This document shows positions 2,907 through 30,643 of a stretch of 32,178 bases of DNA, piece by piece. This DNA comes from Verrucomicrobiota bacterium (GTDB lineage Bacteria > Verrucomicrobiota > Verrucomicrobiia > Chthoniobacterales > UBA10450). Position numbers and translations under genes: made by a program. The DNA is taken from contig QHNV01000046.1 in assembly GCA_003218535.1 (NCBI GenBank), positions 1 through 32,178 on the forward strand. Reading direction: 5' to 3'. Within the stretch, counting starts at the first letter, position 1. Every line of letters starts with the position of its first letter. The notes beneath the pieces were generated by a model. It was not told where the DNA came from. It did not search any database and worked only from the letters and a program-made list of their open reading frames with translations.

Positions 2907-3350
2907 ATGCAAAAAGGAATCTTCGTTCTAGTCGTCCTGACTCTATGCACCTCATCTACTTTTGTTCTTGCGGCCGCTGACACTCCAGAAACGCGGCGCC
3001 ATGAAGCCGAACGTTATCTCCAAGCTACTCCCCCGAAAGCATTGTTCGAGGACATAGCTGATAAGATGGCTGCGAACCTTCCGCCGGATCAACGCGAGCA
3101 ATTCAAGCGAATGATGACTTCTGAACTCGACATTGCTGCACTGACCAAAGCGATGACCGATGCGATGATCAAACACTTCACCACTGAGGAATTGAAAGCG
3201 TTGGCTGATTTTTATGGCTCGGCTGTGGGGAAATCGGCGATGCAAAAGTTCGGCGCGTATATGGCCGATATCATGCCGACGATGCAGGCGGAGATTATGA
3301 AAGCGCAGGCAAAGCTGAACCAATCACTCCCGAACCAATCGCCGCGTTAA
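2907..3350 (+). CDS. secreted DUF2059-family protein
   Basis: The 147-residue product begins with a clear signal peptide (about residues 1-23, ending FVLAAADT). The mature part is helical and contains the DUF2059 pattern, with FTTEELKALADFYGSAVGKSAMQKF at its core (residues about 90-114). The protein is expected to be periplasmic. The family has no established biochemical role. The gene is transcribed away from the sirtuin pseudogene and stands alone. The ATG at 2907 has no strong ribosome site, but it gives the complete signal peptide. Confidence 0.75.
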   Translation: MQKGIFVLVVLTLCTSSTFVLAAADTPETRRHEAERYLQATPPKALFEDIADKMAANLPPDQREQFKRMMTSELDIAALTKAMTDAMIKHFTTEELKALADFYGSAVGKSAMQKFGAYMADIMPTMQAEIMKAQAKLNQSLPNQSPR

Positions 3351-3425
3351 GATAGAGAAACTGTGTATTGAAGGTGGAATGCCGTTCTCTAAACGCGTCG
3401 TTAGGATGAATTCAGTCGTCGGCGA

Positions 3426-3513
3426 GGTGGATCGACCGCTCCACGGGCGATGGCAAACAAAATGCAGCTTCGCCGCGTAATTAACCATCGAGCAAGGGAC
3501 TGCTCGATCCACC
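3426..3513. repeat. inverted pair of GGTGGATCGA palindromic repeats
   Basis: GGTGGATCGA at 3426-3435 is repeated in inverted orientation at 3504-3513. Each copy continues into its own hairpin. The right copy has ATCGAGCA (3487-3494) and TGCTCGAT (3501-3508) around a six-base loop. The left copy has the ATCGACC/GGGCGAT equivalent with different arm bases. Both end in CGATGG when read in their own direction. The element fills the gap between two convergent genes and could serve as a bidirectional transcription end, although neither side has a U-run. Confidence 0.6.
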
Positions 3514-3538
3514 ATTGTCGCGCGCTGATTCGCGAAAC

Positions 3539-5317
3539 TTAGTCCCAGCCGATCTGCCGGCCTTTGTTTTGTTCCTCCAGCCAGGTCATGAGCGGCTTGA
3601 AATAATCCATCATTGCGCGGGTCGAGATATCTTCGCCGGTCGCTTCTTTCAGGACTTTGCGCCAATCTTCGGTGCCGCCTTTTTTAAGAATGTTGTTCAA
3701 CCACACGCCAACTTCCTTGTTGTCGGCATAATTACATGACTGCGGCGGCTGATGGAGGATTTTGCGTGCGATGTAATCGTGTAATTGAAACTTAAAAACA
3801 GTTGCGAACGCATAATTATAATAGTAGGCGGGATTATCGTTAATGTGCGTCTTGGTGGCGGCATCGCAGAACTGTTCGCCGTGCGGTGACGGCGGCTCGA
3901 CTCCCTGAAAATCAGAGACATATTTCCACCAGCGCGCATTCCACTCATCGGGCGTCAAATTCCGCGCGTAGATGTCTGCTTCCCAATGCGGCATGGTGCC
4001 GCAAGAAAAATAAATAAACGGAATCGAGCGCGAGAGTGCGTCATCCAGGAGGAAGGCGGTCTTGTCGGCTTTAAAATCAGCCGGCAAAACGCCGCGCGAC
4101 TGCAGATACGGCACCTGACTCGAGGCGAGCGAAATAAGTTCCCCCACCCCTTCATGAAATCCAGGCGCAGCCCCGAGCCGCAGCACATAAGGAACTTCGG
4201 GACGTGTGTAGGCCATGAAATAATGGCCATGACCGAGCTCGTGGTGCGCGGTGAAAAACCAGCGCGCATTCGGCTCGATGCTTTGCAATGAACGAATGTC
4301 GTGCTCCAGATCGATGTGCCAGCAGGAGGCGTGCGTGTTCTTCTTGCGCTTTTCATTAGGCGGCACTGGATACAAATCCGATTTTTGCCAGAAACTTCCT
4401 GGTAACGGCGGGAATCCCAGCCCGGTGTAAAACTGCTCGGCCGTTTTGACGGTCCACTCCGGTTTTCGTCCCTCGAAGTATTTGTCGATATTCGCCGCTT
4501 CAACCAGCCCCGGCCATTCCTGCGCCCACCGATTGCTGATCCAGTGCGCCGGAATCTTTTTCGGCACCGGCTGATGAAATTTTTCTGCGAGCTTGTATTT
4601 CGCCCAGGTGTGCAGTTGCAAATAAAGCGGACGCAACGTTGTCATCCAATCCTCGAGCATCTTTAGCATCTCATCCGTGGTCATGCCGTAAGCTGCGACC
4701 TCCAGCGAAAAGTAGTCGGGATACTTCATCTCTTTTGCGACGCCGTTTCGCAGATCGCGCAGTGTGACGAGATTCTCTTTGAGCGCGGGTCCAATTTCCT
4801 TCGATGCTTCCCAGACCGCTTTGCGTTCAGAAAGATCCGGGCTCTTCTCCAGTTTGTCGTCGATTTGGTTGGCGGTGATTTTCTGGCCGTTGAGTTTGAA
4901 TTCGAACCCGTTCATGATCGACGCTTGTTTTGTTTCTGCGGTAACCCGTTTCGCCACAAGATCGGGATTGGTCATTGGCCCTTCCGCAGCGTTTAAGAGA
5001 AGCTGTTTCAACTGTCGAACGGTCAGCTCACTTAATTCTTTTTCGCGCGTGAGCAGCTCTCGCGCCTCGTTGATGATTGCCGGATTCCCATTAAACGCGG
5101 CGTAGGCTTTACCGGTAGCTTCTGCAGCCGCGTCGTGCTCGGGCGTCACATCGGTAACTGCAGCCCACTGCGCTTCGCTGTTCACCCGGTACAGCGCTTG
5201 ATAACCGGCGTTCGCGAGCGCCAGAAAATGATCCGCACGTTCCTGAACAGGCGACGCGGTAATCAAAGCTAACGGGAACCAAAGAAAGAGTACGGCAAAA
5301 GATTGGAGTCGAAACAT
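3539..5317 (-). CDS. M2-family (ACE-like) zinc dipeptidyl carboxypeptidase, exported
   Basis: The 592-residue protein has an N-terminal signal peptide (residues 1-21) and an all-helical peptidase M2 body. The zinc motif HHELGH at 358-363 supplies His359, Glu360 and His363. GAAPGFHEGVGE at 383-394 supplies the third ligand, Glu389, with spacing close to that of angiotensin-converting enzyme. Family members remove dipeptides from peptide C-termini. In a soil bacterium it would be a periplasmic or extracellular peptide scavenger. A complete single-domain enzyme is encoded. The gene lies 48 bases downstream of the Rieske-flavoprotein gene on the same strand, but no functional link is apparent. 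Confidence 0.9.
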   Translation of the reverse strand: MFRLQSFAVLFLWFPLALITASPVQERADHFLALANAGYQALYRVNSEAQWAAVTDVTPEHDAAAEATGKAYAAFNGNPAIINEARELLTREKELSELTVRQLKQLLLNAAEGPMTNPDLVAKRVTAETKQASIMNGFEFKLNGQKITANQIDDKLEKSPDLSERKAVWEASKEIGPALKENLVTLRDLRNGVAKEMKYPDYFSLEVAAYGMTTDEMLKMLEDWMTTLRPLYLQLHTWAKYKLAEKFHQPVPKKIPAHWISNRWAQEWPGLVEAANIDKYFEGRKPEWTVKTAEQFYTGLGFPPLPGSFWQKSDLYPVPPNEKRKKNTHASCWHIDLEHDIRSLQSIEPNARWFFTAHHELGHGHYFMAYTRPEVPYVLRLGAAPGFHEGVGELISLASSQVPYLQSRGVLPADFKADKTAFLLDDALSRSIPFIYFSCGTMPHWEADIYARNLTPDEWNARWWKYVSDFQGVEPPSPHGEQFCDAATKTHINDNPAYYYNYAFATVFKFQLHDYIARKILHQPPQSCNYADNKEVGVWLNNILKKGGTEDWRKVLKEATGEDISTRAMMDYFKPLMTWLEEQNKGRQIGWD

Positions 5318-7401: not shown

Positions 7402-7911
7402 ATGAAGAAGGGCCTGCGGCTGTTCGGTCATCCGTTGCATCCGATGTGGATCGTCTTCCCGCTGGGGTTGTTCCCAGTTGCGGCGGTCTTTGATATTATC
7501 TACTTGGTCACCCACAGCGGGCACTGGGCTGACATGTCGTACTGGATTATTGCGGCCGGAATCATCGGCTCGCTTATCGCCGCTGTATTTGGCTTCGTAG
7601 ATTGGCTGGCGCTTCCCTCAGGTACACGTGCAGTGTCAGTCGGCATTTTCCACGGTCTGACGAATTTTATTGTGGTTGTGCTTTTCATCGTAAGCTGGCT
7701 TCTGCGACAGCCGAATCCTACCATGCCCGGTTTGCTCCCGATCATTCTTTGTTTCATCGGAGTCGCGCTGGCGTTGTTCGGCGGTTGGCTCGGTGGGGAA
7801 CTGGTTTACCGAATGAGCGCAGGGGTGGACGAAGGAGCGCATCTCGATTCGCCAAATTCTCTCTCTGGTCGACCAGCTTCTGAAAGAGCAAGCGGTACCG
7901 GGTTTGTATAA
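7402..7911 (+). CDS. DUF2231 family membrane protein
   Basis: The N-terminus RLFGHPLHPMWIVFPLGLF is the hallmark of DUF2231, in which a GHPxHP motif starts the first of four membrane helices. The product has 169 residues with four hydrophobic segments and a polar tail. DUF2231 proteins have been noticed beside cytochrome and redox genes and may bind haem, but their role is not established. The gene follows the duplicated-helix membrane protein within 13 bases. Both carry conserved membrane-edge His residues, which suggests a shared redox or envelope task (inference). Confidence 0.85.
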   Translation: MKKGLRLFGHPLHPMWIVFPLGLFPVAAVFDIIYLVTHSGHWADMSYWIIAAGIIGSLIAAVFGFVDWLALPSGTRAVSVGIFHGLTNFIVVVLFIVSWLLRQPNPTMPGLLPIILCFIGVALALFGGWLGGELVYRMSAGVDEGAHLDSPNSLSGRPASERASGTGFV

Positions 7912-8046
7912 AGCATCGTATTGAGGAACTGAACCGTTCAGTCGATTCTTCCGCCTGAGGATGGCCGCAGCCAGTTCGTGTGATCGCTGGTGGCGACCAA
8001 ACCGTCGGGTAAAGCAGTGGTCGGCTAGTTGATAAGCCAAGCGATT

Positions 8047-9099
8047 TTAACGATTGGCACCTGCTGGAAACATTACCTTGTCGGGCGCGGCATTAAGCGC
8101 GACGAGTAGCTTTTTGATGAGGCGAGTCTTTATGCGGCCAGCTTCTCGCGGTGCGACGATGTAGCGGACAATAGCCTCCAGCCATGTATTCTCGCTTACT
8201 CGAAAAATAACGCGCGGTCGCTCATGCACTTCCAGTTCGTCAACCGGCGTCCGGGCGAGCAAGTCTCGAAACGTTTCCACGCGTTTAATCATTTCCTTGC
8301 CTAGTTCTTCCTCCGTAACCTTTTGCATCGTACCGGCGATGAATTCGAGATCGCTGTTGTAGGCGACATTGAATTTAATTTCGTTCCAAATGTAAGGGAA
8401 AAGCGGCCATGAGTAGTTGTAAATAAGCTCGTCCAGCACTTTTTCGTTTGGGAACTTAATCAGTCGACCGCTCGGATGATCACCAGACATGTATTGGCCA
8501 CCGAATTCCCAAAGGGTCGTATCGAGATAACTGACATCAATTACGTCGCCAGTGGCATCGCCTATCTTGATGCGATCACCCACGCGAAAAGGCTGCCGGA
8601 CGAGAATGTAAATCCAAGCGATGAAACTTTTCATCGGCGTTTGTACTGCGAGGCCGATGATAATTGATCCGACGCCGAGGGCGGCAACCGCAGCATACCA
8701 ATTGACAAAGATTATCGATACAACAATCAGCGCGATGAGAAGGGCGACGACCAGATGCACGATGCGCTGGAGAGTGAAACGAGTGGAAGCATCCTCGATA
8801 CGACCGAGCCCATACACAGAAGCAGCTTGCGCAATCGCGAGTACGATCACGATAAGCGCTGCGCCGCGCAGGATTCGCTCCGAAATATCGACGGTTGCCT
8901 GCGGCAAGGGAATCAGTTTCGAGCCAAGCAAAAAATACAGCACGATGCAAGCACCGAGAATAAGCGTGTGTGCAATGAACCAAAGTTTGTCTCTTCCTTG
9001 CGCTTTGACCTTTTGACGTCGTTTTTCGCCAGTAGCTCGTTGAAGCTCTTTGCGGACTTCGGGTTGCTGTGAAATTTCCTCCGCGGTCTCAGGCATCAT
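8047..9099 (-). CDS. MscS-family mechanosensitive ion channel
   Basis: The protein has about 350 residues: a charged cytoplasmic N-terminus, four membrane helices, then the MscS core. The pore-lining and beta-domain region reads AALGVGSIIIGLAVQTPMKSF, followed by RQPFRVGDRIKIGDATGDV. It continues into the C-terminal mixed domain. It should act as a pressure-release or small-conductance channel in the inner membrane. The open frame extends upstream to 9756, but that part runs antisense to the PHP-domain gene and has no membrane-protein character. The ATG-ATG at 9094-9099 is the sensible start. No clear ribosome site is seen. Confidence 0.85.
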   Translation of the reverse strand: MMPETAEEISQQPEVRKELQRATGEKRRQKVKAQGRDKLWFIAHTLILGACIVLYFLLGSKLIPLPQATVDISERILRGAALIVIVLAIAQAASVYGLGRIEDASTRFTLQRIVHLVVALLIALIVVSIIFVNWYAAVAALGVGSIIIGLAVQTPMKSFIAWIYILVRQPFRVGDRIKIGDATGDVIDVSYLDTTLWEFGGQYMSGDHPSGRLIKFPNEKVLDELIYNYSWPLFPYIWNEIKFNVAYNSDLEFIAGTMQKVTEEELGKEMIKRVETFRDLLARTPVDELEVHERPRVIFRVSENTWLEAIVRYIVAPREAGRIKTRLIKKLLVALNAAPDKVMFPAGANR

Positions 9100-19714: not shown

Positions 19715-20187
19715 ACTGGGGCAGCTGGTTACTATGGGGTTTTATTGCCACCGTTGTGCTGGAATCCATCTCGGCGGGTAGCCAGGGCTTTGGCCTGACG
19801 CGGATGAATGTGCCGTATCTGCTCGGCACGATGTTTACTCCTAACCGCGACCGCGCAAAATTGATTGGGATTTTTATTCATTTTCTCAATGGCTGGCTGT
19901 TCTCGCTGGTCTATGCGGCTGTTTTTGAATCGTTAGGAAAATCGACATGGTGGCTCGGCGGATTGTTCGGACTTGTACAGGCGATTTTTGTTCTCGCAGT
20001 GGCACTGCCCGCAATGCCGGCTTTGCACCCTCGCGTCGCCAACGAGCAGTACGGTCCAACCGTCGAACGGCAATTGGAGCCGCCCGGTTTTCTCGGCCTG
20101 CATTACGGCATTCGGACGCCGATCTCGGTTTTGGTCGCCCACACTATTTTCGGCATCATTCTTGGCGCGTTTTATGTGGTGAAATAG
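19711..20187 (+). CDS. four-helix membrane protein of unknown function
   Basis: The 158-residue product has hydrophobic segments near residues 6-24, 48-68, 76-96 and 138-156. It overlaps the GH15 gene by four bases, so the two are probably translated together. The loop before the last helix carries EPPGFLGLHYGIRTP. I do not recognise the family. The arrangement (inner-membrane protein after a cytosolic glycosidase) does not reveal a reaction. Confidence 0.75.
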   Translation: MNWGSWLLWGFIATVVLESISAGSQGFGLTRMNVPYLLGTMFTPNRDRAKLIGIFIHFLNGWLFSLVYAAVFESLGKSTWWLGGLFGLVQAIFVLAVALPAMPALHPRVANEQYGPTVERQLEPPGFLGLHYGIRTPISVLVAHTIFGIILGAFYVVK

Positions 20188-20239
20188 CGATCAAAATCTT
20201 CGCGACACGCACAACCCATCGAAATCGTACAGCGAATGG

Positions 20240-21058
20240 TTAGCCGCGTTTATCCGGTTCTGTAGGTTCTGCCCGTCCGCTCGTCGCGCCTGAAAGCAGA
20301 TCAACGCGAATGAGTGGATCGTCCGGTAACACAATTGGGCCTTCCCATCGGAGAAAACCGGCCGGTGCGGGATTGGTCAGCCAGATTTTTGTGTCAGGCA
20401 CATTCACAAACAAACTCGCGATGAACGGAATTTCCGGGTGAATGATGAACCGATCGCCCTTCAGCAAGCGTCCCGACATTCTCATGCGGTCAAGCCCGCC
20501 GTAAGAAATTTTCACTGTCACAACTTGCACCGTTAATGTTGGGAATGGCGCAAAGCCGACCGCCTTGAGGGCAAGTTGTTCGCCCCGAAGAAGCCGCTTG
20601 CGCAGATTACTCAATGCAATGGTGAACCCGAACCCGGCAAACGTCCGGCCTGGTTCAATATCAATCTTTTTGGACACATCCTTGTCGTTTCCGTGAATGT
20701 GTGCGCTGGCCGTTCCCGACAGAAAATCCACGGCGAATTCACGCTGCGGCTTTCCATGTTTCGATTCTTTCCAAGACCACTTTTCCTGGATGAGCTCCGG
20801 CTGTTGTCGAAATTGCGCGTGTTCCTCATAGAGTTCGCCGGCGGGGAATCTGTAAGTAATGATGATGTGAAGCCGGTTGCCTTCCACCCATTGCCTGAAC
20901 TCTCCGTCGGCAAGCTTTTTTCCATTGATGTCGCACAACCCGGGAAATCCGTGCGCCGCCCCCGCCGGCTCAGTAACTTCGAGAGCGAAAACCGGCGTTA
21001 CGATACAGCCCGCGGCAAAGATTGAGAGTAGGACGGCCCGCCTTTTTTTCACGCGCAT
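20240..21058 (-). CDS. exported protein of unknown function
   Basis: From the ATG at 21058 the product has 272 residues with a signal peptide (VKKRRAVLLSIFAAGCIVTPVFA). The mature part is beta-rich, with motifs HIIITYRFPAGELYEEHAQF and SYGGLDRMRMSGRL and a Glu/Pro-rich end. The Cys in the signal region is not in a clear lipobox. The frame continues upstream to 21103, giving 15 more residues without signal character. No family is recognised. It probably resides in the periplasm. Confidence 0.65.
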   Translation of the reverse strand: MRVKKRRAVLLSIFAAGCIVTPVFALEVTEPAGAAHGFPGLCDINGKKLADGEFRQWVEGNRLHIIITYRFPAGELYEEHAQFRQQPELIQEKWSWKESKHGKPQREFAVDFLSGTASAHIHGNDKDVSKKIDIEPGRTFAGFGFTIALSNLRKRLLRGEQLALKAVGFAPFPTLTVQVVTVKISYGGLDRMRMSGRLLKGDRFIIHPEIPFIASLFVNVPDTKIWLTNPAPAGFLRWEGPIVLPDDPLIRVDLLSGATSGRAEPTEPDKRG

Positions 21059-21210: not shown

Positions 21211-22119
21211 ATGACGTCGCCAAATATTTTGGTGAAGGGTCCAACGCAGTCCCCTTCACGCGTCATGAAATCGGAGACAGCAGCGATCACAGAAACTGCC
21301 CTGATTACGGGCGCCAGCAGCGGGATAGGATTGCATCTCTCGAAGGAATTCGCCAGGCATGGACATCCATTGGTGCTCGTTGCTCCAGTCGCAACGGAAC
21401 TTCAGGAGATTGCGTCGGAATTGAAAACCGCAGGAGCGCCGTTGGTGAGAACAATCGCCAAGGACCTGGAGAAGCCTCACTCGCCGCAGGAGATCTTCGA
21501 TGAGCTGGCGCGCGATCTCATCTACATCGACATCCTCGTAAACAATGCCGGATCAGCGCACAGAGGGAAGTTTTGGGAGATCGACATCGACGACGACGTA
21601 TCGGTTTTGCGGCTGAACATCGAAGCGGTCCTGCGGCTCACGAAGTTGTTCTTGCCAGCGATGATTGAAAATCGCCGCGGACGTATTCTGAACGTGGCTT
21701 CCGTCGCAGGGTTTGAGCCTGGCCCACAAATGGCTGTTTATCATGCTTCCAAAGCATTTGTGCTGTCATTCAGCGAAGCGCTCGCAACCGAATTGGCAGA
21801 TACCGGGGTGACTGCCACCGCGCTGTGTCCCGGCCCGACTGACACTGATTTTCTTGAAAAATCCGGAACCCTCGGCACCCGCCTCTTTCAAAAAACAAAT
21901 GTGATGGCGCCGCAACACGTAGCCAAAGCTGGATACCAAGCATTGATGGCCGGCGAACGCGTCGCTGTTCCGGGGGTGGCGAACAAAATCATTGCCTTCT
22001 CCCGGCGTCTCCTGCCAGAAGCGACATTAGCCAAGATGACGGAAAGAATCTACGTCGATACAACAGACCGAACGCACGAGCGCGGACACGAAGAACTCAA
22101 GGCGGCGCACGGTCGCTAA
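21211..22119 (+). CDS. SDR-family oxidoreductase (DltE/YqjQ-like)
   Basis: The 302-residue short-chain dehydrogenase has TGASSGIGLHLSKEFARHG as its cofactor motif, VNNAGSAHRGKF, NVASVAGFEPGP with the catalytic Ser, and YHASKAFV with the Tyr/Lys pair. CPGPTDTDF follows. The unusual C-terminal part (VAVPGVANKIIAFSRRLLPE) is typical of the DltE-like group. Its substrate is unknown. An AGAGGG ribosome site precedes ATG 21211. The ATG at 21265 would remove 18 weakly conserved residues. It ends about 70 bases before the trp leader frame and is likely a separate unit. Confidence 0.85.
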   Translation: MTSPNILVKGPTQSPSRVMKSETAAITETALITGASSGIGLHLSKEFARHGHPLVLVAPVATELQEIASELKTAGAPLVRTIAKDLEKPHSPQEIFDELARDLIYIDILVNNAGSAHRGKFWEIDIDDDVSVLRLNIEAVLRLTKLFLPAMIENRRGRILNVASVAGFEPGPQMAVYHASKAFVLSFSEALATELADTGVTATALCPGPTDTDFLEKSGTLGTRLFQKTNVMAPQHVAKAGYQALMAGERVAVPGVANKIIAFSRRLLPEATLAKMTERIYVDTTDRTHERGHEELKAAHGR

Positions 22120-22153
22120 AAATCAGAGTTTTTCGACTCCTGGATTTTCTTGA

Positions 22154-22181
22154 TCGACACGGACACAACCAACGCTATATT
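22154..22181 (+). promoter_or_regulatory. putative sigma-70 promoter of the trp operon
   Basis: TCGACA (22154-22159) matches the -35 consensus at five of six positions. After 16 bases, TATATT (22176-22181) matches -10 at five of six. Transcription would start near 22188, only about three bases before the leader ATG. A leaderless or near-leaderless transcript is therefore implied if both calls are right. No other promoter candidate is better in the 70-base gap. Confidence 0.45.
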
Positions 22182-22190
22182 GGTGCGACA

Positions 22191-22274
22191 ATGAGCGCCG
22201 ACGTGTTTTATTCGACACATACGACAAATCGAAGGCCGGCTGCCTTCGCGCGGGCGCTGCTGCTTTGGTGGTAA
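22191..22274 (+). CDS. trpL: putative trp leader peptide (27 residues, ends Trp-Trp)
   Basis: An ATG at 22191 opens a 27-codon frame with tandem Trp codons at 22266-22271 directly before the TAA at 22272-22274. Its last seven residues are RALLLWW. A short peptide with adjacent Trp codons upstream of a trp operon is the classical sign of ribosome-mediated attenuation. Ribosomes would stall there when charged tRNA-Trp is scarce. A weak promoter-like sequence ends nine bases before the ATG, so no ribosome site exists for it. A GTG at 22203 would give a 23-residue alternative with the same end. Two Trp codons could arise by chance, but the position makes that less likely. Confidence 0.55.
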   Translation: MSADVFYSTHTTNRRPAAFARALLLWW

Positions 22275-22277
22275 AGA

Positions 22278-22342
22278 GCGACCGTTTCTCGACGGTGCGC
22301 TGATGTTTCTCTCGTTCAAAAGGGAGATCTTGTCTCTGCGCA
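22278..22342 (+). promoter_or_regulatory. candidate attenuator hairpins between trp leader frame and aroF
   Basis: Hairpin A pairs ACCGT (22281-22285) with ACGGT (22292-22296). Hairpin B pairs TCTCTC (22308-22313) with GGGAGA (22322-22327). Its outer stem pairs TGCGC (22296-22300) with GCGCA (22338-22342) and shares base 22296 with A, so the two partly compete. A ribosome stalled at the Trp codons would cover the left arm of A. B is followed only by mixed pyrimidines, not a clean U-run, so I cannot call it an intrinsic terminator. The switch could act on translation of aroF instead. Confidence 0.35.
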
Positions 22343-22370
22343 AATGAACTAACCCAAACCTTGTAACCAT

Positions 22371-23402
22371 ATGTTGATTGTGATGAAACCCCGCGCCACT
22401 GCGTCTGAGACCGAGGCAGTGGTTGATGTTATTACTGCGATCGGTCTTCGCGCTCATCCGATGCCCGGAGCCACGCGTACCGCGATCGGAATCACCGGGA
22501 ATGAAGGTCCCATCGACGGCAGACGTTTCGAGAACTTGCCCGGCGTAGCGGAAGTCATCCGCGTCACCAAGCCGTACAAGCTGGTCACGCTCGATCTGCA
22601 CCCCGATAAAACGGTCGTGCGCGTCGGCGACGCAACGATCGGCGGCAGCGAGATCGCGATTATTGCAGGGCCATGCGCGATTGAGAGCCGGGAACAGGCG
22701 TTTACTGTGGCCAAAGCCGTGCAGAAGAGTGGAGCGCGCTTTTTTCGCGGCAGCATATGGAAGCCGCGCACTTCGCCTTACACTTTTCAAGGCTTAGGTG
22801 ACAAGGCGTGGCAGATCATGACAGAAATTCGCGATGCGTTCGGACTAAAGGTCGTCACCGAAGCGGTGGAAGAGTCGCATGTCGGTCTTATCGAAAAGTA
22901 CGGTGATGTCATTCAAATCGGTGCTCGAAACATGCAAAACTTTTCGCTTCTTAAACGGGCGGGCCGGTCAAAGCTGCCTGTCCTGTTGAAGCGTGGAATG
23001 GCTGCAACACTGGAAGAATGGTTGCTGGCTGCCGAATACATCATGGCTGAGGGCAATTATAATGTCATCCTTTGCGAGCGGGGTGTGCGCACATTCGCGC
23101 AGCACACGCGTAACACGCTAGACCTCGCATCCGTACCGGCGATTCGCCGGATTTCACATTTGCCCGTAATCGTGGATCCTTCCCACGGCACCGGCACCGC
23201 CTATATGGTGACGCCGCTCGCTCGTGCTGGGATCGCAGTTGGCGCGGATGGCCTCATGGTCGAAGTCCACAATCGCCCCGAGCTAGCTCTTTCCGACAGC
23301 GCGCAGGCGTTGACGCCTTCTCAGTACGCGCAGCTCATCGAGGAAGTTCACGCCGTTCGCAATGTTATGCCACCCGCCGCTGATGGCTTGAACGCAAATT
23401 GA
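22371..23402 (+). CDS. aroF: 3-deoxy-7-phosphoheptulonate (DAHP) synthase, type I-beta
   Basis: This enzyme joins phosphoenolpyruvate and erythrose-4-phosphate, the first step of aromatic amino acid synthesis. The N-terminal 70 residues look like the ferredoxin-like regulatory domain ([13 protein letters not shown]). The catalytic barrel carries [57 protein letters not shown] and [10 protein letters not shown]. At 343 residues it is the Thermotoga-type enzyme, in which this domain mediates feedback by aromatic amino acids. It leads the trp operon after the leader frame. ATG 22371 gives the expected start; ATG 22383 is an alternative. No ribosome site is visible. Confidence 0.92.
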
Positions 23403-23416
23403 GGGAAACGCCGTTG

Positions 23417-23965
23417 ATGGTCCTGCTAATCGATAATTATGATTCCTTCGCTTACAACCTCGCGCAGTATTTCGGCGAGCTCGGTTGTGAACTTCTAGTT
23501 AGACGCAACGATGAAATTTCTCTGGATGAGATCGCAGCGTTAGCACCGGAGCGAATTTGCATTTCCCCCGGGCCCTGCACCCCGGGTGAAGCCGGCATTA
23601 GCAAGGAAGTTATTTTAACCTTCGGACAGCAGATCCCGATTTTAGGCGTTTGCCTCGGTCATCAATGCATCGCCGAGGCGTATGGCGGAAAAGTGATTCG
23701 TGCCGCACGGCTCATGCACGGGAAATCATCCATGATCAGGCATAACGGGACCCTGCTTTTTTCGGATTTACCTAATCCGTTTGAAGCCGGCCGATACCAT
23801 TCGTTAGTCGTCGAGCGAAGCACAGTTCCCGACTGTCTCGAGATCATGGCTCTGCGCCACCGCGAGTTCCCGGTGCACGGAGTGCAATTTCACCCGGAAT
23901 CACTCCTTACGCCCGATGGCAAAAGGATCCTGGCGAACTTTCTAGCGCATCCGGCACACTCATGA
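23417..23965 (+). CDS. trpG: anthranilate synthase glutamine amidotransferase subunit
   Basis: This subunit hydrolyses glutamine and passes ammonia to TrpE. The class I amidotransferase triad is seen in LGVCLGHQC (Cys79) and VQFHPESL (His and Glu). [13 protein letters not shown] marks the start. The 182-residue length is usual. It may also serve 4-amino-4-deoxychorismate synthase, as TrpG/PabA often does. The TTG at 23399 overlaps the aroF stop, but the ATG at 23417 matches the family start. It overlaps trpE by four bases. Confidence 0.93.
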
Positions 23966-25491
23966 AACTGCGAGTCACCCCAACGCTGGATGAATTTTCG
24001 CAGCTCGCGAGACAGGGGAACGTCATTCCTGTTTTCGTAGAACTCATCGCTGATGGCGAAACGCCGGTCTCAGCATTCAAGAAACTCAATCGTGGCGGTT
24101 ACAGCTTCCTTTTTGAATCAACCGAGAAAAATGACGTGTCGGGCCGCTTTTCATTCGTCGGAATCGAGCCACGACTGGTGATCCAAAGTTACGGACGCGA
24201 AGTCCGCATCGCGCAAAATGGTATCGAGCACCGGTTCCAAACGACGACTGATCCTCTCGACGAGGTTGGGAAGCTGATGGCTCGCTACCGATTTGTTTCA
24301 CATTCGGAATTGCCTCGATTCGCTGGCGGCGCTGTCGGTTTTCTCGGCTATGAAGCGATCCGATTCTTTGAACCAAAGGTTCCCGTAGCAGGCGATGACG
24401 ACCTGCGCCTGCCAGAAATGCTTTTCATGCTTACTGGCAGCGTCGTTGTTTTCGATCATCGGCTCCGCAGCTTGAAAGTCATCGTCAACGCGTTCCTTGA
24501 CGAAGGTCCAATCGAAAAGGTCTATGCGCGAGCCGCCGCCTCGGTGGATACCATAACGGAACAATTAGAGGCATCGGTTGATCTTCCACTTATCCGGATT
24601 GCAGAGTGCGAGACGCAGCCGGCCCGCAGCAATTTCCAGCGCAAAGATTTTGAGCGCGCAGTCGAACGAGCGAAGGAATACATCCGCGCGGGCGATATTT
24701 TTCAGGTCGTCTTGTCGCAACGATTTGAATCCGACTTCAACGGTGCGCCGCTCGATTTTTATCGCTGTCTTCGTTTCATCAATCCCTCGCCGTACATGTT
24801 TTGTCTCAAACTCGCTGCGGGACGGGTCCGTCCGACTGGCGGATTTGGCGGCGATTTTGCACTCGTTGGCAGTTCACCGGAAATGCATGTTCGCCTGGTC
24901 GGCGACACGATTGAGATTCGCCCCATCGCAGGGACCCGCGCGCGCGGCGCCAGCCCTGAGCAGGATGAAGCTAATGCAGCCGATCTTCTTGCAGATCCGA
25001 AGGAGCGTGCAGAGCACATCATGCTTGTCGATCTTGCACGCAACGATATCGGTCGTGTCGCCGAGTTCGGCACGGTTCGTGTGACCGAGATAATGGAAAT
25101 CGAGCGTTACAGTCACGTCATGCACATCGTTTCCAACGTGGTTGGCCGTAGCCGCAAGGCCTGTACTGCCTTCGACCTAGTGAGGGCGACATTCCCCGCC
25201 GGCACCGTCTCTGGCGCGCCAAAAATACGCGCCATGCAAATCATCAGCGAACTGGAGACGACCCGACGCGGCTGCTATGCAGGGGCGATCGGTTACTTCG
25301 GGTTCGATGGCAATTTCGATTCCTGCATCGCGTTGCGCTGCGCCATCTTAAAAAACGGGAAGGCGTATTTTCAAGCCGGCGCGGGTATCGTCGCTGATTC
25401 GGACCCGCAGCGGGAATACGAAGAAACAGTTAACAAAGCGGGTGCAATGATGAAGGCGCTGGCAATGGCGAGCCAGATGAAAACGGTATGA
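23962..25491 (+). CDS. trpE: anthranilate synthase large subunit
   Basis: TrpE converts chorismate and ammonia to anthranilate. The 509-residue protein has the chorismate-binding domain in its second half. [51 protein letters not shown] and [14 protein letters not shown] are all present. The tryptophan-feedback motif normally LLES is LFES here (Ser53 kept), which suggests feedback inhibition is retained. Between CLKL and DFALVGSS lies an extra 13-residue Gly/Arg-rich loop (bases 24814-24852) not expected in the family. It overlaps trpG at ATGA and trpD by four bases, fitting tight translational coupling. Confidence 0.95.
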
Positions 25492-26555
25492 ATCGGCAAG
25501 GCATGATCAGCGAAATCGGCGATGTCGAGCTTCGCCAAATAACCACGCGTCTCATGCGCGGCGACAACCTCAGCCGTACGGAAGCCGCAGAGTTCCTTCA
25601 GTGCCTGCTTAGTCCCGCCGTCACGGACTCGCGAATAGCTGCCGCGCTCGTCGCTTTAGCGGCCAAAGGCGAAACGGCCGAAGAGCTCGCAGGAATGGCC
25701 GAAGCCATGCGGAGTCGTGCTATTCGTTTAGATTCGCAGCATCGCAATTACATCGACACTGCAGGCACCGGATCAAGCGCGGCGAAAACGTTCAACGTCT
25801 CAACCGCCGCAGCATTCGTCATCGCAGGCGCCGGTTTACCTGTAGCAAAACACGGGGCGCGCGCGGCGACTTCGAATTGCGGAAGCGTAGACGTGCTCGA
25901 CGCGCTCGGCGTTAATACTGCTGCTTCTCTTGAAATTGTGGAACGCTGTCTCAACGAGCATGGGATCTGTTTTATGTTTGCGCCGCTTTTTCATACGGCG
26001 ATGGCGCGCGTCGCGCAGGTGCGTCGGCACCTGGGCGTGCCTACCACATTCAATTTGCTCGGGCCGCTCACGAATCCGGCGCGAGCGCCTTTTCAACTTC
26101 TGGGAGTGTCGCAGCGTTCGCTCGTTGAGCGCGTCGCATCCGCTCTCGTCCTTCTCGGCATCGAACAAGCGTGGGTTGTCCACGGCGCTGACGGCTTGGA
26201 TGAAGTGACAATCACAGGCGAGACTTTTGTCGCTGCCTGTTCGGCGTGCACGGGCGTGACGACATTCACGATTTCGCCAAAGGAGTTCGGATTGGAATGC
26301 CGATCCCTCGATGGATGCCACGCGGAAGGGCCAACTGAAAATGCGCGACTAATCCGCGTACTTTTGAATGGCGAAAAAAATGGGAACCTGGCTGTGGCGC
26401 GCGATCTGGTCGTCATCAATGCTGCTGGCGCGCTACATCTCGCGGGAGTTGCCACGGACCTACGTCAGGCAGCGAACATGGCTTGTGAAAGCATCGACAG
26501 CGGACGCGCAGCATCGAAGCTGGACGCGCTTATTCGAGAAACAAATCGGAGCTGA
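25488..26555 (+). CDS. trpD: anthranilate phosphoribosyltransferase
   Basis: TrpD transfers the ribosyl phosphate of PRPP to anthranilate. The 355-residue protein has the family layout, with the PRPP loop at residues 93-106 (GTGSSAAKTFNVST) and the anthranilate site at 121-129 (KHGARAATS). In most enzymes these read GTGGDGxxTxNxST and KHGNR. Here the GD pair is SS and the Asn is Ala, although the rest is conserved (ATSNCGSVDVLDALG, GPLTNP, GLDEVTITG). I regard it as a functional variant because the operon is otherwise intact. The stop is followed after two bases by trpC. Confidence 0.93.
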   Translation: MNRQGMISEIGDVELRQITTRLMRGDNLSRTEAAEFLQCLLSPAVTDSRIAAALVALAAKGETAEELAGMAEAMRSRAIRLDSQHRNYIDTAGTGSSAAKTFNVSTAAAFVIAGAGLPVAKHGARAATSNCGSVDVLDALGVNTAASLEIVERCLNEHGICFMFAPLFHTAMARVAQVRRHLGVPTTFNLLGPLTNPARAPFQLLGVSQRSLVERVASALVLLGIEQAWVVHGADGLDEVTITGETFVAACSACTGVTTFTISPKEFGLECRSLDGCHAEGPTENARLIRVLLNGEKNGNLAVARDLVVINAAGALHLAGVATDLRQAANMACESIDSGRAASKLDALIRETNRS

Positions 26556-26557
26556 CG

Positions 26558-27424
26558 ATGACTAGCATTCTCTCCGAAATTATCGATCGAAAACGGCAAG
26601 TCGTAACGCGACTACGAGCCGATCCCGCTTCGCGAGATTTTCGGCAGTGCGCACTGGAAATTCGCGCAGACGCAGCGGTGCATCGGTTGTTGCGAGCATT
26701 GAAGTCCAGGTCACCGGGAGTGAAGATTATCGCGGAATTCAAACGTAGATCGCCGTCAGCTGGAACCATTCACAGCGATTTATCGGTGACTCACGTTGCT
26801 CGTTTCTACGAACGCGGTGGTGCCTGCGTCATCTCGGTTTTGACCGACGAAGAATACTTTGGTGGTTCGATTGCCGATTTAAGCGCGGTTCGCGTCAGCA
26901 CCGGTCTGCCAATCTTGCGCAAAGATTTCATCATTGATCCGATCCAGCTTTACGAAGCAGCCATAGCCGGCGCCGACGCTGTATTGTTGATCGCAGGCGT
27001 ACTCGATGACGCTGCGCTATCAAAACTGCGCGCAGTCTCCGAGGACGAACTCGGGCTGGACGCGCTCGTCGAAGTGCATACGTCCGAAGAATTGCGCCGC
27101 GCGCTGAGTGCCAGCGCCAAAATCATTGGTGTGAACAACCGCGATCTTCAGACGTTCCGGGTTTCGTTGGAGACCAGCGAGCGACTCATCCTCGAAACGC
27201 AGCGCGACAAGATTATGGTTAGCGAGAGTGGACTACAAAGCGCAAAATCTTTACGTCATCTTCAAGCCCTCGGGTTCCGCGCTTTTCTAATCGGCGAAGC
27301 GCTGATGCGCGCGGCCGACCCTGAAACAGCTCTGAGCGATTTAATCGCTGCTGCCGAAGAGCGACCAGCGGTGAATGACGAAATCGGAACGACTAATGAC
27401 GAAAGAATCCAGAAATCCGAATGA
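26558..27424 (+). CDS. trpC: indole-3-glycerol phosphate synthase
   Basis: TrpC closes the indole ring from carboxyphenylamino-deoxyribulose phosphate. The 288-residue TIM barrel shows IIAEFKRRSPSAG with the catalytic Lys, LTDEEYFGGS, LRKDFIIDP, LIAGVLDD, LVEVHTSEEL, GVNNRDL and SESGL. The natural barrel ends near residue 268 (LSDLIAAAEERPA). The last 18 residues (VNDEIGTTNDERIQKSE) are encoded by a direct-repeat sequence running into the intergenic repeat and look acquired. It is a stand-alone enzyme, not fused to TrpF, which follows after 78 bases. Confidence 0.94.
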   Translation: MTSILSEIIDRKRQVVTRLRADPASRDFRQCALEIRADAAVHRLLRALKSRSPGVKIIAEFKRRSPSAGTIHSDLSVTHVARFYERGGACVISVLTDEEYFGGSIADLSAVRVSTGLPILRKDFIIDPIQLYEAAIAGADAVLLIAGVLDDAALSKLRAVSEDELGLDALVEVHTSEELRRALSASAKIIGVNNRDLQTFRVSLETSERLILETQRDKIMVSESGLQSAKSLRHLQALGFRAFLIGEALMRAADPETALSDLIAAAEERPAVNDEIGTTNDERIQKSE

Positions 27425-27502: not shown

Positions 27503-28159
27503 ATGACGATTCCGATACAAATTAAAATCTGTGGCGTTACGAACGTGGCGGACGCGCGCGCCTGCGTCGAAGTCGGCGCGCATTTGATCGGCCTTAACTT
27601 TTACCCGCAAAGCCCGCGCTACATCGAACCCGAGGTTGCCCGGCAAATCATAGAGACTATACCGGCGAGCGTTCACGCAGTTGGCGTTTTCGTCGATGCG
27701 AATGACGATGAAGTTCGTAATGTTGCAAACCTCGCCGGAATCCGAGGCGTGCAATTACACGGGAACTGTTCACCTGAAATGGCGCATGAACTGGCTCGTG
27801 AATTTCGCGTCATTCGGGCGTTTTCCACTCATGCGCGGTTCCGTCCAGAGGAGATTGCATCGTTTCCAGATTGCGATGTGCTGATCGATGCGCATCATCC
27901 CGATCTCCGGGGTGGAACTGGGCTGACATGCGATTGGCCGGCCGCGGGAGCAGCGTTGCCGTTCACACGATTTCTCATTCTCTCCGGTGGTTTAAACGCG
28001 CAAAACGTTGACCGAGCGATCGCGGCCGTCTCGCCACACGCTGTTGACGTTTGCAGCAGTGTTGAGAGTAAACCAGGCGTGAAAGATCATCGTGCGATTA
28101 AAGATTTTGTCGACGCCGTACGCGCGGCGGAGCGTTCGCTACAGGCGACATCGGCTTAG
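27503..28159 (+). CDS. trpF: phosphoribosylanthranilate isomerase
   Basis: TrpF performs the Amadori rearrangement of phosphoribosylanthranilate. The 218-residue barrel begins [15 protein letters not shown], with the catalytic Cys in KICG. It has [38 protein letters not shown] with the catalytic Asp, and [10 protein letters not shown] and [14 protein letters not shown] at the phosphate site. All positions expected for activity are present. The ATG at 27503 lacks a strong ribosome site, and the repeat unit lies between it and trpC. trpB follows eight bases after its stop. Confidence 0.94.
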
Positions 28160-28167
28160 CAATTCCA

Positions 28168-29391
28168 ATGCAAAAATTACCGATTACTGAAAGCGAGCCG
28201 GATGAGCACGGGCATTGGGGCAAGTTCGGTGGTCGTTACGTTCCGGAGACTTTGGTCGCGCCGCTCGAGGAGCTGACGAAGGAGTTCATGCGCGCTCGCG
28301 AGGATGCGAACTTTTGGCGCGAACTCAACCAACTGCTGCGAGATTATGGTGGCCGGCCAACGCCATTGTTTCATGCGCAGCGGCTGAGCGCACATGCTGG
28401 CGGAGCGCAAATTTATCTGAAACGCGAAGATCTTCTGCACACCGGCGCGCACAAGATCAACAACGCTGTGGGCCAGGCCCTGCTCGCCCGACGAATGAGC
28501 AAACGCCGCGTCATTGCTGAGACGGGCGCGGGTCAGCATGGCGTCGCTACGGCGACGGTTTGCGCGCTGTTTGGATTACGCTGCATCATTTACATGGGCG
28601 CGGAAGACGTGCGGCGGCAAGCGCTCAACGTTTTCCGAATGCGACTGCTGGGCGCCGAAGTGCTGACCGTCAACGCTGGCACGCGCACACTTAAAGATGC
28701 GATCAACGAGGCATTGCGCGATTGGGTGACGAATGTGCACGACACTTATTATTTGCTCGGCAGCGCGCTAGGTCCGCACCCCTACCCGCTCATGGTGCGT
28801 GAGTTCCAAAGCGTGATTGGACGTGAAGCGCGCGAACAAATTCTGTCCGCGTCGGGAAAGTTGCCGCGCGCGCTCATTGCCTGTGTCGGCGGCGGCTCAA
28901 ATTCGATCGGTTTGTTTCATCCTTTCATTGCAGATGAACAGGTCAGATTGATCGGCGTAGAAGCCGGAGGACGCGGTGATTCGTTAGGCGAACATGCCGC
29001 AAGATTTCACACTGGTGCGGCGAGCGGCGGTGGCCAGATCGGCGTTTTGCAAGGCACGATGTCTTACGTGCTTCAAGATACGAACGGCCAAATTGCAACG
29101 ACGCATTCGATTTCGGCTGGTCTCGATTACTCTGCCATTGGCCCGGAGCACGCGTTTCTCCACGACGCCGGACGAGCAGAATATATTTGGACAAGCGATG
29201 CCGAGGCACTCGAAGGATTCGAGCTTTGCGCCAAACTGGAGGGAATCATCCCGGCGCTGGAAACATCACACGCAATCCCGCCTGCAATTCGTATCGCACG
29301 CGATCTGCCACGAGATGAGTCGATCATCGTGAATTTGTCCGGTCGCGGCGATAAAGACGTCCAGCTCGTTGCGGATTTACAAATGCAATGA
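28168..29391 (+). CDS. trpB: tryptophan synthase beta chain
   Basis: TrpB condenses indole with serine using pyridoxal phosphate. The 407-residue protein is full length, of the standard TrpB1 type. [14 protein letters not shown] is near the start. [17 protein letters not shown] holds the PLP lysine in the HKINN motif, [15 protein letters not shown] follows, and [15 protein letters not shown] binds the phosphate. EAGGRG and the final LSGRGDKD are typical. It overlaps trpA by four bases, as expected for partners in an alpha2beta2 complex. Confidence 0.96.
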
Positions 29392-30182
29392 GCCGCATCC
29401 TGGGGACGTTCGCTGCGCTCAAACGCTCCGGATGCGGTGGGTTCATCCCATTTATCACTGCTGGCGATCCCGATCTTGCAACAACCGAGCTTCTACTCCG
29501 CGAGCTGGCCGCTGCGGGTGCAGACATTATTGAACTGGGCGTTCCCTTCAGCGATCCAGTCGCCGATGGCGAGGTAATTCAACGCGCATCCGACCGCGCG
29601 CTACGCAAGGGTGTGACGCTCCGCGACGCTCTGACATGCATTGCGCATGTAAAACAACGTATCGATGTGCCCATTGTTCTCTTCAGCTATTTCAATCCCT
29701 TATTGAGATTTGGCGAAGACCGGCTGGCAGACGAAGCGAAACAAGCCGGCGCGGACGCAGTGCTTGTGACGGACTTGGTCCCCGAAGAGGCTCAGACCTG
29801 GACTGAAAAATTGATCCAACACGAGCTCGACCCGATTTTTCTTGTCGCGCCAACAACGTCAGGTGATCGGCTGGCACAGATTGCAAAGCGGGGGCGCGGA
29901 TTCATCTATGCTGTTTCGCGCGCCGGCGTAACAGGCGCGAGAGATAAAATAACGCGCGATGCAGAAGCGCTCGTGAAACGCGTCCGCGCGGTAAGTGATT
30001 TACCCGTGGCGGTCGGCTTCGGGGTCTCGACTGCGGACCAGGTTCGCGAAATCTGGGGGTTCGCAGATGCCGCCGTTGTCGGCAGCGCCATCGTTAGCCA
30101 AATAGAAAAGCTCGGGAATTCGCCAGACCTGGTGAAGCACATCGGCAAATTCGCGCGATCACTGGTGGCACCGGCCAGCTAG
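29388..30182 (+). CDS. trpA: tryptophan synthase alpha chain
   Basis: TrpA splits indole-3-glycerol phosphate to indole, which is channelled to TrpB. The 264-residue barrel contains [30 protein letters not shown] with the catalytic Glu and Asp, [57 protein letters not shown] and VVGSAIV. The start overlaps trpB (ATGA). It is the last gene of the operon. No convincing terminator is seen in the 44 bases before the convergent toxin gene. Confidence 0.95.
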
Positions 30183-30226
30183 CGATCATTTATTCTTCAA
30201 GAGGCGATTTCGCGGCAGGCTCATGT

Positions 30227-30643
30227 CTAGTGTGAACTCTGCGGCTCGATACGCTTGATACCGGGGAACTGATCGAAGTCGCGATCGAATGACGCGATGC
30301 CAATGGATTCCGCGCTGGCGACCGCAGCGTGGTACGCGTCCACGAAGTTTACATCGGTTTGCGCGAAGTTTCGCAATGCGCTCAGCAAAATCCTCCTCTT
30401 CTGGACTTCAATCCCCGTGGATTCAACTACGTCTTTAAGGGCAGCGGCAATCTCGGCGCGATCGAGCAAATAAAATGATTGCAGCACCCACGCGGTTTCC
30501 GCGAGAGCAAGATCGGTAAGAACCAGAGTGAATTCGCCGGCAGCAGCGCGGGCAAATAGGTTGCGGCTACGAGGCGAATGAGTGGGATGATCACCGGTGA
30601 GGAAACGAACGAGAACGTTGGTGTCGAGCAAAAGCCTCGGCAT
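30227..30643 (-). CDS. PIN-domain ribonuclease toxin (VapC-type)
   Basis: The 138-residue protein shows the acidic PIN site: Asp7 in LLDTNVLVRFL, Glu49 in ALAETAWVL, Asp102 in VNFVDAYHAA, and Asp120/Asp122 in SFDRDFD. Such toxins cut specific RNAs, often tRNA or rRNA. The start codon overlaps the stop of the antitoxin gene (TGATG), the normal arrangement for a toxin-antitoxin pair. The active-site set is complete, so the toxin looks functional. The RNA target is unknown. Confidence 0.9.
   Translation of the reverse strand: MPRLLLDTNVLVRFLTGDHPTHSPRSRNLFARAAAGEFTLVLTDLALAETAWVLQSFYLLDRAEIAAALKDVVESTGIEVQKRRILLSALRNFAQTDVNFVDAYHAAVASAESIGIASFDRDFDQFPGIKRIEPQSSH

Follow-up and report, generated by a model that had tools for sequence, protein, structure and literature searches.

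The aroF-trpGEDCFBA operon of a Udaeobacter-like bacterium (Chthoniobacterales, Verrucomicrobiota) is probably governed by a ribosome-mediated attenuator that depends on a tryptophan codon in a short leader frame, as judged from its sequence and from that of its relatives. Ribosome-mediated trp attenuation is textbook regulation. The leader was found in the window, by which we mean the whole stretch of 32,178 nucleotides that was analysed, and the nearest named relatives of the genome are Verrucomicrobia MAGs and uncultured Candidatus Udaeobacter. A preliminary description of this DNA had reported a 27-codon frame ending Trp-Trp-stop, located 96 nt before aroF and behind a promoter-like sequence, and reading 22191-22274 bore this out. 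Indeed, direct reading and a script both gave a frame of 27 codons, MSADVFYSTHTTNRRPAAFARALLLWW-stop (22191..22274, + strand, as for all window features given below), with 96 nt between its stop codon and the aroF ATG at 22371. The Trp-Trp codons TGG TGG occupy 22266..22271, and the first of them is the codon -2 that a codon table of 18 leaders showed to be invariant.

The operon begins with aroF (22371..23402), which encodes a 3-deoxy-7-phosphoheptulonate (DAHP) synthase, and continues with trpG (23417..23965; residues matched from 23420, start codon uncertain), trpE (23962..25491), trpD (25488..26555), trpC (26558..27424), trpF (27503..28159), trpB (28168..29391) and trpA (29388..30182). These genes were identified by homology search, except trpB, which was assigned to the PALP family by Pfam and named TrpB from its position and translation. 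By their coordinates, three adjacent gene pairs of the row overlap by 4 nt. The entire row consists of tryptophan synthesis genes and one DAHP synthase gene, in agreement with the earlier proposal that aroF and the trp genes are controlled together. The second half of that proposal, a coupling of the whole entry into the shikimate pathway to tryptophan, has to be narrowed: since the genome encodes a further DAHP synthase (G000:C7), 48% identical to the window aroF, tryptophan charging would govern the window aroF and not all shikimate-pathway entry. Concerning the origin of this gene, the window aroF (22371-23399) is 70-74% identical to aroF from Acidobacteriota (L048-L061) and mostly 65-71% identical to that of most other genera of its own family. 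In the tree, aroF of the aroF-trp clade groups with Acidobacteriota rows at 92/84, a branch that is not firm, and a transfer involving Acidobacteriota is possible on this sequence evidence.

To gauge how often such a frame arises by chance, 22120-22370 was shuffled 5000 times with its dinucleotide composition kept. Ten of these shuffles contained an ATG frame, 8-45 codons long, that had two or more Trp among its last five codons; in a single shuffle both final codons were Trp. A looser definition, one Trp in the last two codons with all start codons allowed, was reached by 434/5000 shuffles. Conservation across relatives is a stronger test of the leader frame than these shuffles.

For this purpose, aroF homologues were collected from 83 family genomes, 80 named contigs and additional fetched stretches; the matches, present in 82/83 of the family genomes, cover every kind of DAHP synthase as well as remoter enzymes. 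Loci with an identical upstream 150 nt were merged before counting, L001-L021 and L102-L127, which for the most part duplicate the genomic places of named records, were counted once, and the rows L035/L115, L062 and G079 (contig begins inside aroF) were dropped. The clade of the window aroF then comprises 29 distinct loci, namely 28 tree rows (branch 100/99) and L005, the protein of which is too short for the tree and the upstream region of which is the same as in the clade. trpG stands behind aroF in 26 of the 29 loci and the contig ends first in L043, L046 and L164. According to what precedes aroF, 19 loci (window included) carry a leader of the window type, called type A, six carry a second type, called type B, two carry a 10-residue frame and two carry neither. 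All 19 type A loci have trpG behind aroF; in the aroF tree type A is not resolved as a single clade (2 changes; L031 and L033 unplaced). Counts of 18 below refer to the distinct type A loci that are fully readable, window included. The excluded one, L024, has an unread stretch within the leader, yet displays the same frame end TGGCGATAA.

Alignment of the upstream regions of the relatives, as had been suggested, revealed the conserved short Trp frame: it is open in 18/18 readable type A loci, with 23-27 codons, and codon -2 is TGG in all 18. Lengths that depart from 27 codons do so by 3, 6 or 12 nt. The spacer between the frame and aroF (89-100 nt) varies by single bases. The other codons at the end of the frame are less constant, codon -1 being CGA in 16/18 and TGG in two (the window and L065) and codon -3 being TGG in 7/18; adjacent Trp codons at the end are present in 8/18 leaders. 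The tandem Trp that had been taken as the hallmark of the leader thus holds for these eight only, and what is invariant is the one Trp codon at -2. That 8/18 leaders contain no more than a single Trp counts to some degree against a trp attenuator. Relatives with the same operon and no short Trp-rich frame had been named as the finding that would count against the leader; of the 29 clade loci, two have neither leader type, namely L032, without any short Trp frame, and L042, with two that are unlike all others. The aroF of L042 is a near neighbour of that of the type B row L046, and therefore its upstream region may have been lost or exchanged. These two loci, together with the fact that one genome could show such a frame by luck, are what speaks for a chance short frame or a conserved DNA element misread as a frame. 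Against this stand the 10 shuffles in 5000 for the window alone and the 18 loci that keep both frame and Trp, and we regard this explanation as hardly credible.

Selection seems to act on the frame and its Trp codon and not on the middle of the peptide. Pairwise differences in the middle of the type A frame are 0.434, 0.433 and 0.430 at codon positions 1, 2 and 3, and this equal change suggests that the peptide is unselected there, in keeping with a leader whose control codon alone is of importance. Among the 20 positions tabulated (the first 9 and the last 11), the only invariant residues besides Trp are Met 1 and Ala -6, and the latter lies in or beside an RNA strand described below (strand 2). 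These data bear on the possibility that the leader encodes an arrest peptide similar to TnaC, in which the nascent chain senses free tryptophan and, in place of tRNA charging, stalls the ribosome near the stop codon. A single Trp codon in the whole frame (8/18 leaders), Arg (CGA) after Trp in 16/18 and the invariant Ala -6 would suit such a peptide. However, the residues of the nascent chain drift, codon positions 1, 2 and 3 changing equally in the middle of the frame, the part conserved ahead of Trp coincides in part with RNA strand 2, and an operon for tryptophan synthesis should respond to a lack of tryptophan and not to its excess. We consider an arrest peptide quite improbable.

A scan of 22050-22420 detected one promoter-like site, compared with a mean of 0.2 in shuffles, at 22154..22181: a -35 TCGACA, a 16 nt spacer and a -10 TATATT that lies 9 nt from the leader ATG. 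In the 17 loci with enough upstream sequence (window included), the -35 is TCGACA in 16 and TAGACA in one, the spacer is 16-17 nt in 16/17, and the gap between the -10 and the ATG is 7-9 nt in 16/17, the exception being L022, where a gap of 5 was chosen. In this count only gaps of 5-11 were considered, the best hexamer being chosen in each locus, and L033, which has 13 nt upstream, was left out. Transcription usually starts 6-8 nt past the -10. From the -10 to ATG spacing, the leader mRNA probably starts at the ATG or within about 3 nt of it.

A palindrome GGTAAC-N6-GTTACC with a variable middle was also noticed 54-55 nt upstream of the leader ATG in 7/18 type A rows (L041:2756-2773, L037:2750-2767, L025:2275-2292, L026:2750-2767, L027:641-658, L028:2291-2308 and L036:2755-2772); another of the 18, L033, has too little upstream sequence. 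It is absent upstream of the window leader, and elsewhere only copies of the same places were found (27/263 fetched loci). By its sequence it looks like an operator for a transcription factor.

A translated leader behind such a promoter could merely aid expression, by translational coupling or early loading of ribosomes, without any response to tryptophan. The frame is conserved and, by eye, no Shine-Dalgarno-like sequence is present next to the aroF start, as this explanation would have it. But most codons vary and the Trp codon does not, and the spacer of 89-100 nt is long for simple coupling; a role restricted to expression appears improbable.

We then considered the RNA that surrounds the frame. 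Five strands can be recognized. Strand 1 (GCGCCGAC, 22195..22202) lies at the start of the leader and has as its partner strand 2 (GCGGGCGC, 22250..22257), before the Trp codons; both came from folding of the alignment. Strand 3 (AGCGACCGT, 22277..22285) is invariant in sequence in the alignment. Strand 4 (ACGGTGCGCTGA, 22292..22303) can pair, by folding, either with strand 3 or with strand 5. The first pairing gives hairpin 3:4 (22277..22301), followed by a U-rich, non-uniform tail GATGTTTCTCTC; the second gives the composite hairpin 4:5 (22296..22342), which excludes 3:4 and contains an inner stem TCTCTC/GGGAGA (22308-22327) with the tail TCTTGTCTCT. Counted from the first base of the codon concerned, the distance to strand 3 is 11 nt for the invariant Trp codon in 17/18 sequences (12 nt in the other one) and 5 nt for the stop codon in 17/18.

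RNAalifold on 18 rows returned helix 1:2 and helix 3:4. Helix 1:2 is paired in 90.3% of the cells of the 18 sequences, with weak covariation, and 6/8 of its pairs are standard in the window. Taken together, helices 1:2 and 3:4 pair in 93.7% of cells as against 26-56% in slid versions; among 500 shuffles, in which kinship is not removed, 23 reached their covariation score and 119 their number of pairs changed on both sides. Folding z-scores, for which shuffles are the only control, were negative for hairpin 3:4 in 19/19 sequences (mean -2.70, 18/19 below -1.5), 19 values that are not independent since the sequences are nearly identical, and for hairpin 4:5 also in 19/19 (mean -2.48, 15/19 below -1.5). 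The segment 1-2 gave a mean of -1.66 (18 sequences). A pairing of strand 2 with strand 3 as protector found no support, its mean z being 0.12 (18 sequences).

In hairpin 4:5, two neighbouring pairs change in tandem and in a compensatory manner between the window and L065 on one side and the other sequences on the other side. The pair counts of 4:5 and its inner stem are above those of slid versions (81.7% vs 39-59%) and no better than those of column shuffles (390/500 for cells paired). Covariation is weak: when cognate strands were compared with swapped ones, 392/5000 were obtained for 1:2, 435/5000 for 4:5 and 553/5000 for 3:4, which hardly varies. A hint of a pairing 1:4 appeared in some masked folds (145/5000 in the swap test). 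The prediction of 4:5 rests more on its stability in every sequence than on covariation.

The position of these strands relative to the ribosome was modelled. A ribosome footprint extends from -15 to +14 around the P site. With this footprint, strand 3 is barely clear of a ribosome that has the Trp codon in its A site, and its first half is covered when the A site contains the stop codon. We folded the leader with 60 nt of aroF in 18 sequences, masking the ribosome; at the Trp codon the mask ends one base before strand 3. Here, 3:4 formed with P>0.5 in 12/18 sequences and 4:5 in 5/18. With the mask at the stop codon these numbers became 0/18 for 3:4 and 16/18 for 4:5, and without any mask 4/18 and 13/18. 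L031 and L033 have no 4:5 in the model, even with the ribosome at the stop codon. When the mask at the Trp codon was made 3 nt longer downstream, the base of 3:4 formed with P>0.5 in 0/18 and 4:5 in 14/18; the modelled flip of the hairpins with ribosome position therefore hangs on the footprint assumed, the shorter mask and the longer one giving opposite outcomes.

We propose the following sequence of events. Transcription would start at or next to the leader ATG, as suggested by the promoter spacing, and a ribosome would load at once on the 5' end. When charged tRNA-Trp is scarce, the ribosome would pause on the Trp codon that precedes the stop by two codons. Strand 3 would then lie just outside the ribosome and pair with strand 4, and with hairpin 3:4 formed the operon would be expressed. 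When charged tRNA-Trp is plentiful, the ribosome would move two codons on, to the stop, and cover strand 3, so that strand 4 would be free for strand 5 and hairpin 4:5 would form as the presumed off state. The assignment of 3:4 to the on state and 4:5 to the off state has in our estimation about an even chance of being right. Hairpin 3:4 is transcribed before strand 5, which could trap the 3:4 state, and the U-rich tail behind 3:4 points in the opposite direction to 3:4 being the on state. That the leader is a switch operated by the ribosome in response to tryptophan is very probable, whichever way the two hairpins are assigned.

The opposite assignment would make the leader an occlusion attenuator: hairpin 3:4 with its U-rich tail would be an intrinsic terminator, a ribosome held at the Trp codon would block 3:4, and 4:5 would form only after read-through. 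It is likewise a ribosome-mediated Trp switch. The near invariance of 3:4, with an A-rich stretch before it and a U/C-rich one behind strand 4, fits this assignment, as does the folding: without a mask, the lower stem of 3:4 formed with P>0.5 in 17/18 sequences once the tail was transcribed, and in 0/18 under the longer mask at the Trp codon. However, with Trp in the A site the stem would begin near +15 relative to the P site, where the ribosome ends, and would hardly be blocked; a ribosome at the stop codon would block 3:4 more, which would invert the regulation unless release is fast. Furthermore, 3:4 was not among the terminator-like sites that the scan reported for the window, and in L041 it called a shifted version. 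We consider occlusion unlikely and return to the reading in which 3:4 permits expression.

How the off state 4:5 would act is suggested by the openness of the aroF start. The openness of this region is the same whichever state is formed (mean unpaired 0.58 with the ribosome at Trp and 0.59 at the stop), which does not support an aroF translation start hidden in the off state and argues against control at translation initiation. We infer from this that 4:5 would act by premature termination of transcription, through Rho or through a hairpin that needs no U-tract. Rho is encoded in the genome (two matches). No U-tract was found behind hairpin 4:5 as a whole, that is, after strand 5. Its inner stem was one of three terminator-like sites in the scan of 22050-22420 (shuffle mean 0.5); the same scan did not call it in L041. 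The preliminary description had read the leader as a sign of ribosome-mediated trp attenuation, and the frame, the Trp codon, the promoter and the predicted alternative hairpins agree with that, but no canonical terminator with a U-tract was found behind the presumed off hairpin. The missing U-tract may be normal in this genome, for no run of five T or A was seen by eye at the convergent gene-end junctions 3340-3560, 7900-8060, 20180-20250 and 30170-30240; the scan found no terminator-like site at the latter two. Canonical intrinsic terminators may be rare in the genome.

The loci of the clade that have another leader deserve description. Type B stands upstream of aroF in L017, L018, L043, L046, L164 and L047. 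The first five, with an ATG start, have Met-Arg at residues 1-2 and Tyr-Trp-Arg at 21-23, positions that were counted by hand on the peptides, three of the five from an inner ATG. In L047 the motif is Gly-Tyr-Trp-Arg, and its frame could begin only at a GTG. From its sequence, type B looks like a second solution before the same gene. By eye, the start of the type B leader looks complementary to its own Tyr-Trp-Arg codons, and a Tyr adjoining the Trp is curious before a DAHP synthase gene. The 10-residue frame MTRELFLSTW, which ends in Trp, was read inside a longer frame in L020 and L021, whose aroF proteins are identical; it is weak evidence, because a frame end with one Trp occurred in 434/5000 shuffles. 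Two genomes contain two aroF-trpG copies each: G057:C348 and G057:C265 (L022, L031) are both type A, and of G072:C213 and G072:C96 (L028, L021) one is type A and the other has the 10-residue frame. These doubled copies may reflect mixed bins.

To describe the spread of the type A leader, a covariance model was built from the 19 type A sequences and run with Infernal's stricter filters, with which weak members can be missed. It matched 19 places, all training members, in 18/213 genomes of the order, 17 of them from the genus of the window and one from another genus of the family; of 387 genomes sampled evenly across the phylum, it hit only that of the window. A trpE match at E 1e-100 is present in 25 of the 35 genomes of the genus and absent from 10, many of the genomes being incomplete. 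The 25 divide into 17 with type A, two with type B (G067, G073), one with the 10-residue frame (G078), one with neither type (G081), two in which the contig begins inside aroF (G066, G079) and two without a match to the clade aroF (G051, G055). In other genera of the family, aroF is convergent to trpG in 22 fetched loci.

We also surveyed 39 stretches upstream of trpE, drawn from the 172 genomes of the order with trpE; three of them (L220, L225, L242) are shortened by a contig end. In 30/39 the end of a long frame lies no more than 100 nt from trpE, which is therefore probably inside an operon there. Short frames that have two Trp, or a single one among their last four codons, precede trpE in 8/39. 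Three of these frames (L222, L224, L226) are alike and have VRC..R.WIQ in common. Between trpE and this shared stretch lies a tRNA-Gly (gcc) gene, in the direction of trpE in L222 and opposite to it in L224 and L226, and with this gene intervening the stretch was rejected as a trpE leader.

No Rfam family, Trp_leader included, matched the window at gathering score. At E up to 10, the region 22100-22420 gave one match, to an unrelated family and far below the score of that family, and six relatives, scanned with permissive settings, each had one match below threshold, again to unrelated families. TrpR (PF01371) and the T-box (RF00230) had 0 matches in the window's own genome, which is about 90% complete, and the controls were positive. 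Outside the phylum, in L053 and L059 from Acidobacteriota (Blastocatellia), an aroF-trpE-trpG-trpD operon has a leader about 100-210 nt upstream of aroF; that of L053 is MKTSNYNSRTINAAWYWWSVNVGGCVVWRAM, with a strong hairpin AACCCGC..GCGGGTTTTTTT behind it. By its sequence this leader resembles a textbook case of trp attenuation, here in a different phylum. Strong matches to it were obtained in these 2/119 genomes of their order, together with three more that are short and weak.

A broader reading can be put forward tentatively, and we would call it rather doubtful as a whole. In this lineage, trp attenuation would do without an intrinsic terminator: one decisive Trp codon in a near-leaderless frame would pick the hairpin, and Rho or a U-less hairpin would provide the off state. 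Within one family, the aroF-trp operon would also have gained a Trp leader on more than one occasion, each time a different one (type A, Trp at -2; type B, Tyr-Trp-Arg at 21-23). A conserved trp attenuator in a widespread soil lineage would mean that the tryptophan makers of that genus meter the synthesis by tRNA charging. Such a geometry, with one Trp codon, a near-leaderless start and no U-tract, would show how few elements an attenuator can do with. Multiple amino acid auxotrophies have been reported for Udaeobacter, in the excerpted text of PMC10665431.

We judge the leader, from comparison with its relatives, to be most probably a Trp attenuator, a kind of control already known in other bacterial groups, with variant features that appear new. 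In E. coli, the trpL attenuator (Rfam Trp_leader) has a leader peptide of 14 codons with Trp codons before the Trp genes. As in that system, a strand a few nucleotides behind the stop codon is predicted here to pair with a middle strand that can instead pair with a third, and the position of the ribosome at Trp or at the stop would set the outcome, as modelled with the shorter footprint. Strands 3, 4 and 5 presumably play the roles of segments 2, 3 and 4 of the E. coli trp leader. Unlike E. coli trpL, the window leader has 27 codons, one invariant Trp codon and a near-leaderless start, its presumed off hairpin is not followed by a U-tract, and aroF is the first gene.

As described in the excerpts of PMC7298713 and PMC1262725, trp attenuation is known from Proteobacteria and Actinobacteria. 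The preliminary description knew of no account of it in this phylum, and in agreement with this no account of a trp leader in Verrucomicrobia is among the literature matches listed, from a search with subscription journals mostly outside its reach; PMC11683593, in the part excerpted, has ErmB as its subject. In the trpLE(G) operon of Sinorhizobium meliloti, the leader RNA begins at the leader ATG, the Trp codons are near the end of the frame, and no repression of transcription of that operon is reported in the excerpted text (PMC7298713). The window leader resembles it in the predicted RNA start at or near the ATG and in the Trp codons near the frame end. The S. meliloti peptide, as given in the same excerpts, has 14 residues and a different sequence, and the attenuator there controls trpE(G) and ends in a transcription terminator (PMC7298713).

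According to the excerpts of PMC1262725, the Trp attenuators of Corynebacterium and Streptomyces, like the window leader, combine leader peptides containing UGG with alternative hairpins before trp genes and were found by comparison; unlike here, all their terminators are GC-rich with poly-U and their UGG repeats are double or triple. The terms aroF and DAHP have 0 occurrences in the text of that paper. The same excerpts describe leader frames of Mycobacterium that carry cysteine codons and, unlike the window leader, have no conserved hairpins as possible terminators (PMC1262725). What these Mycobacterium frames share with the leader of the window is that their control codons are next to the stop, that there is no obvious intrinsic terminator, and that Rho has been proposed to act in its place (PMC1262725, as excerpted).
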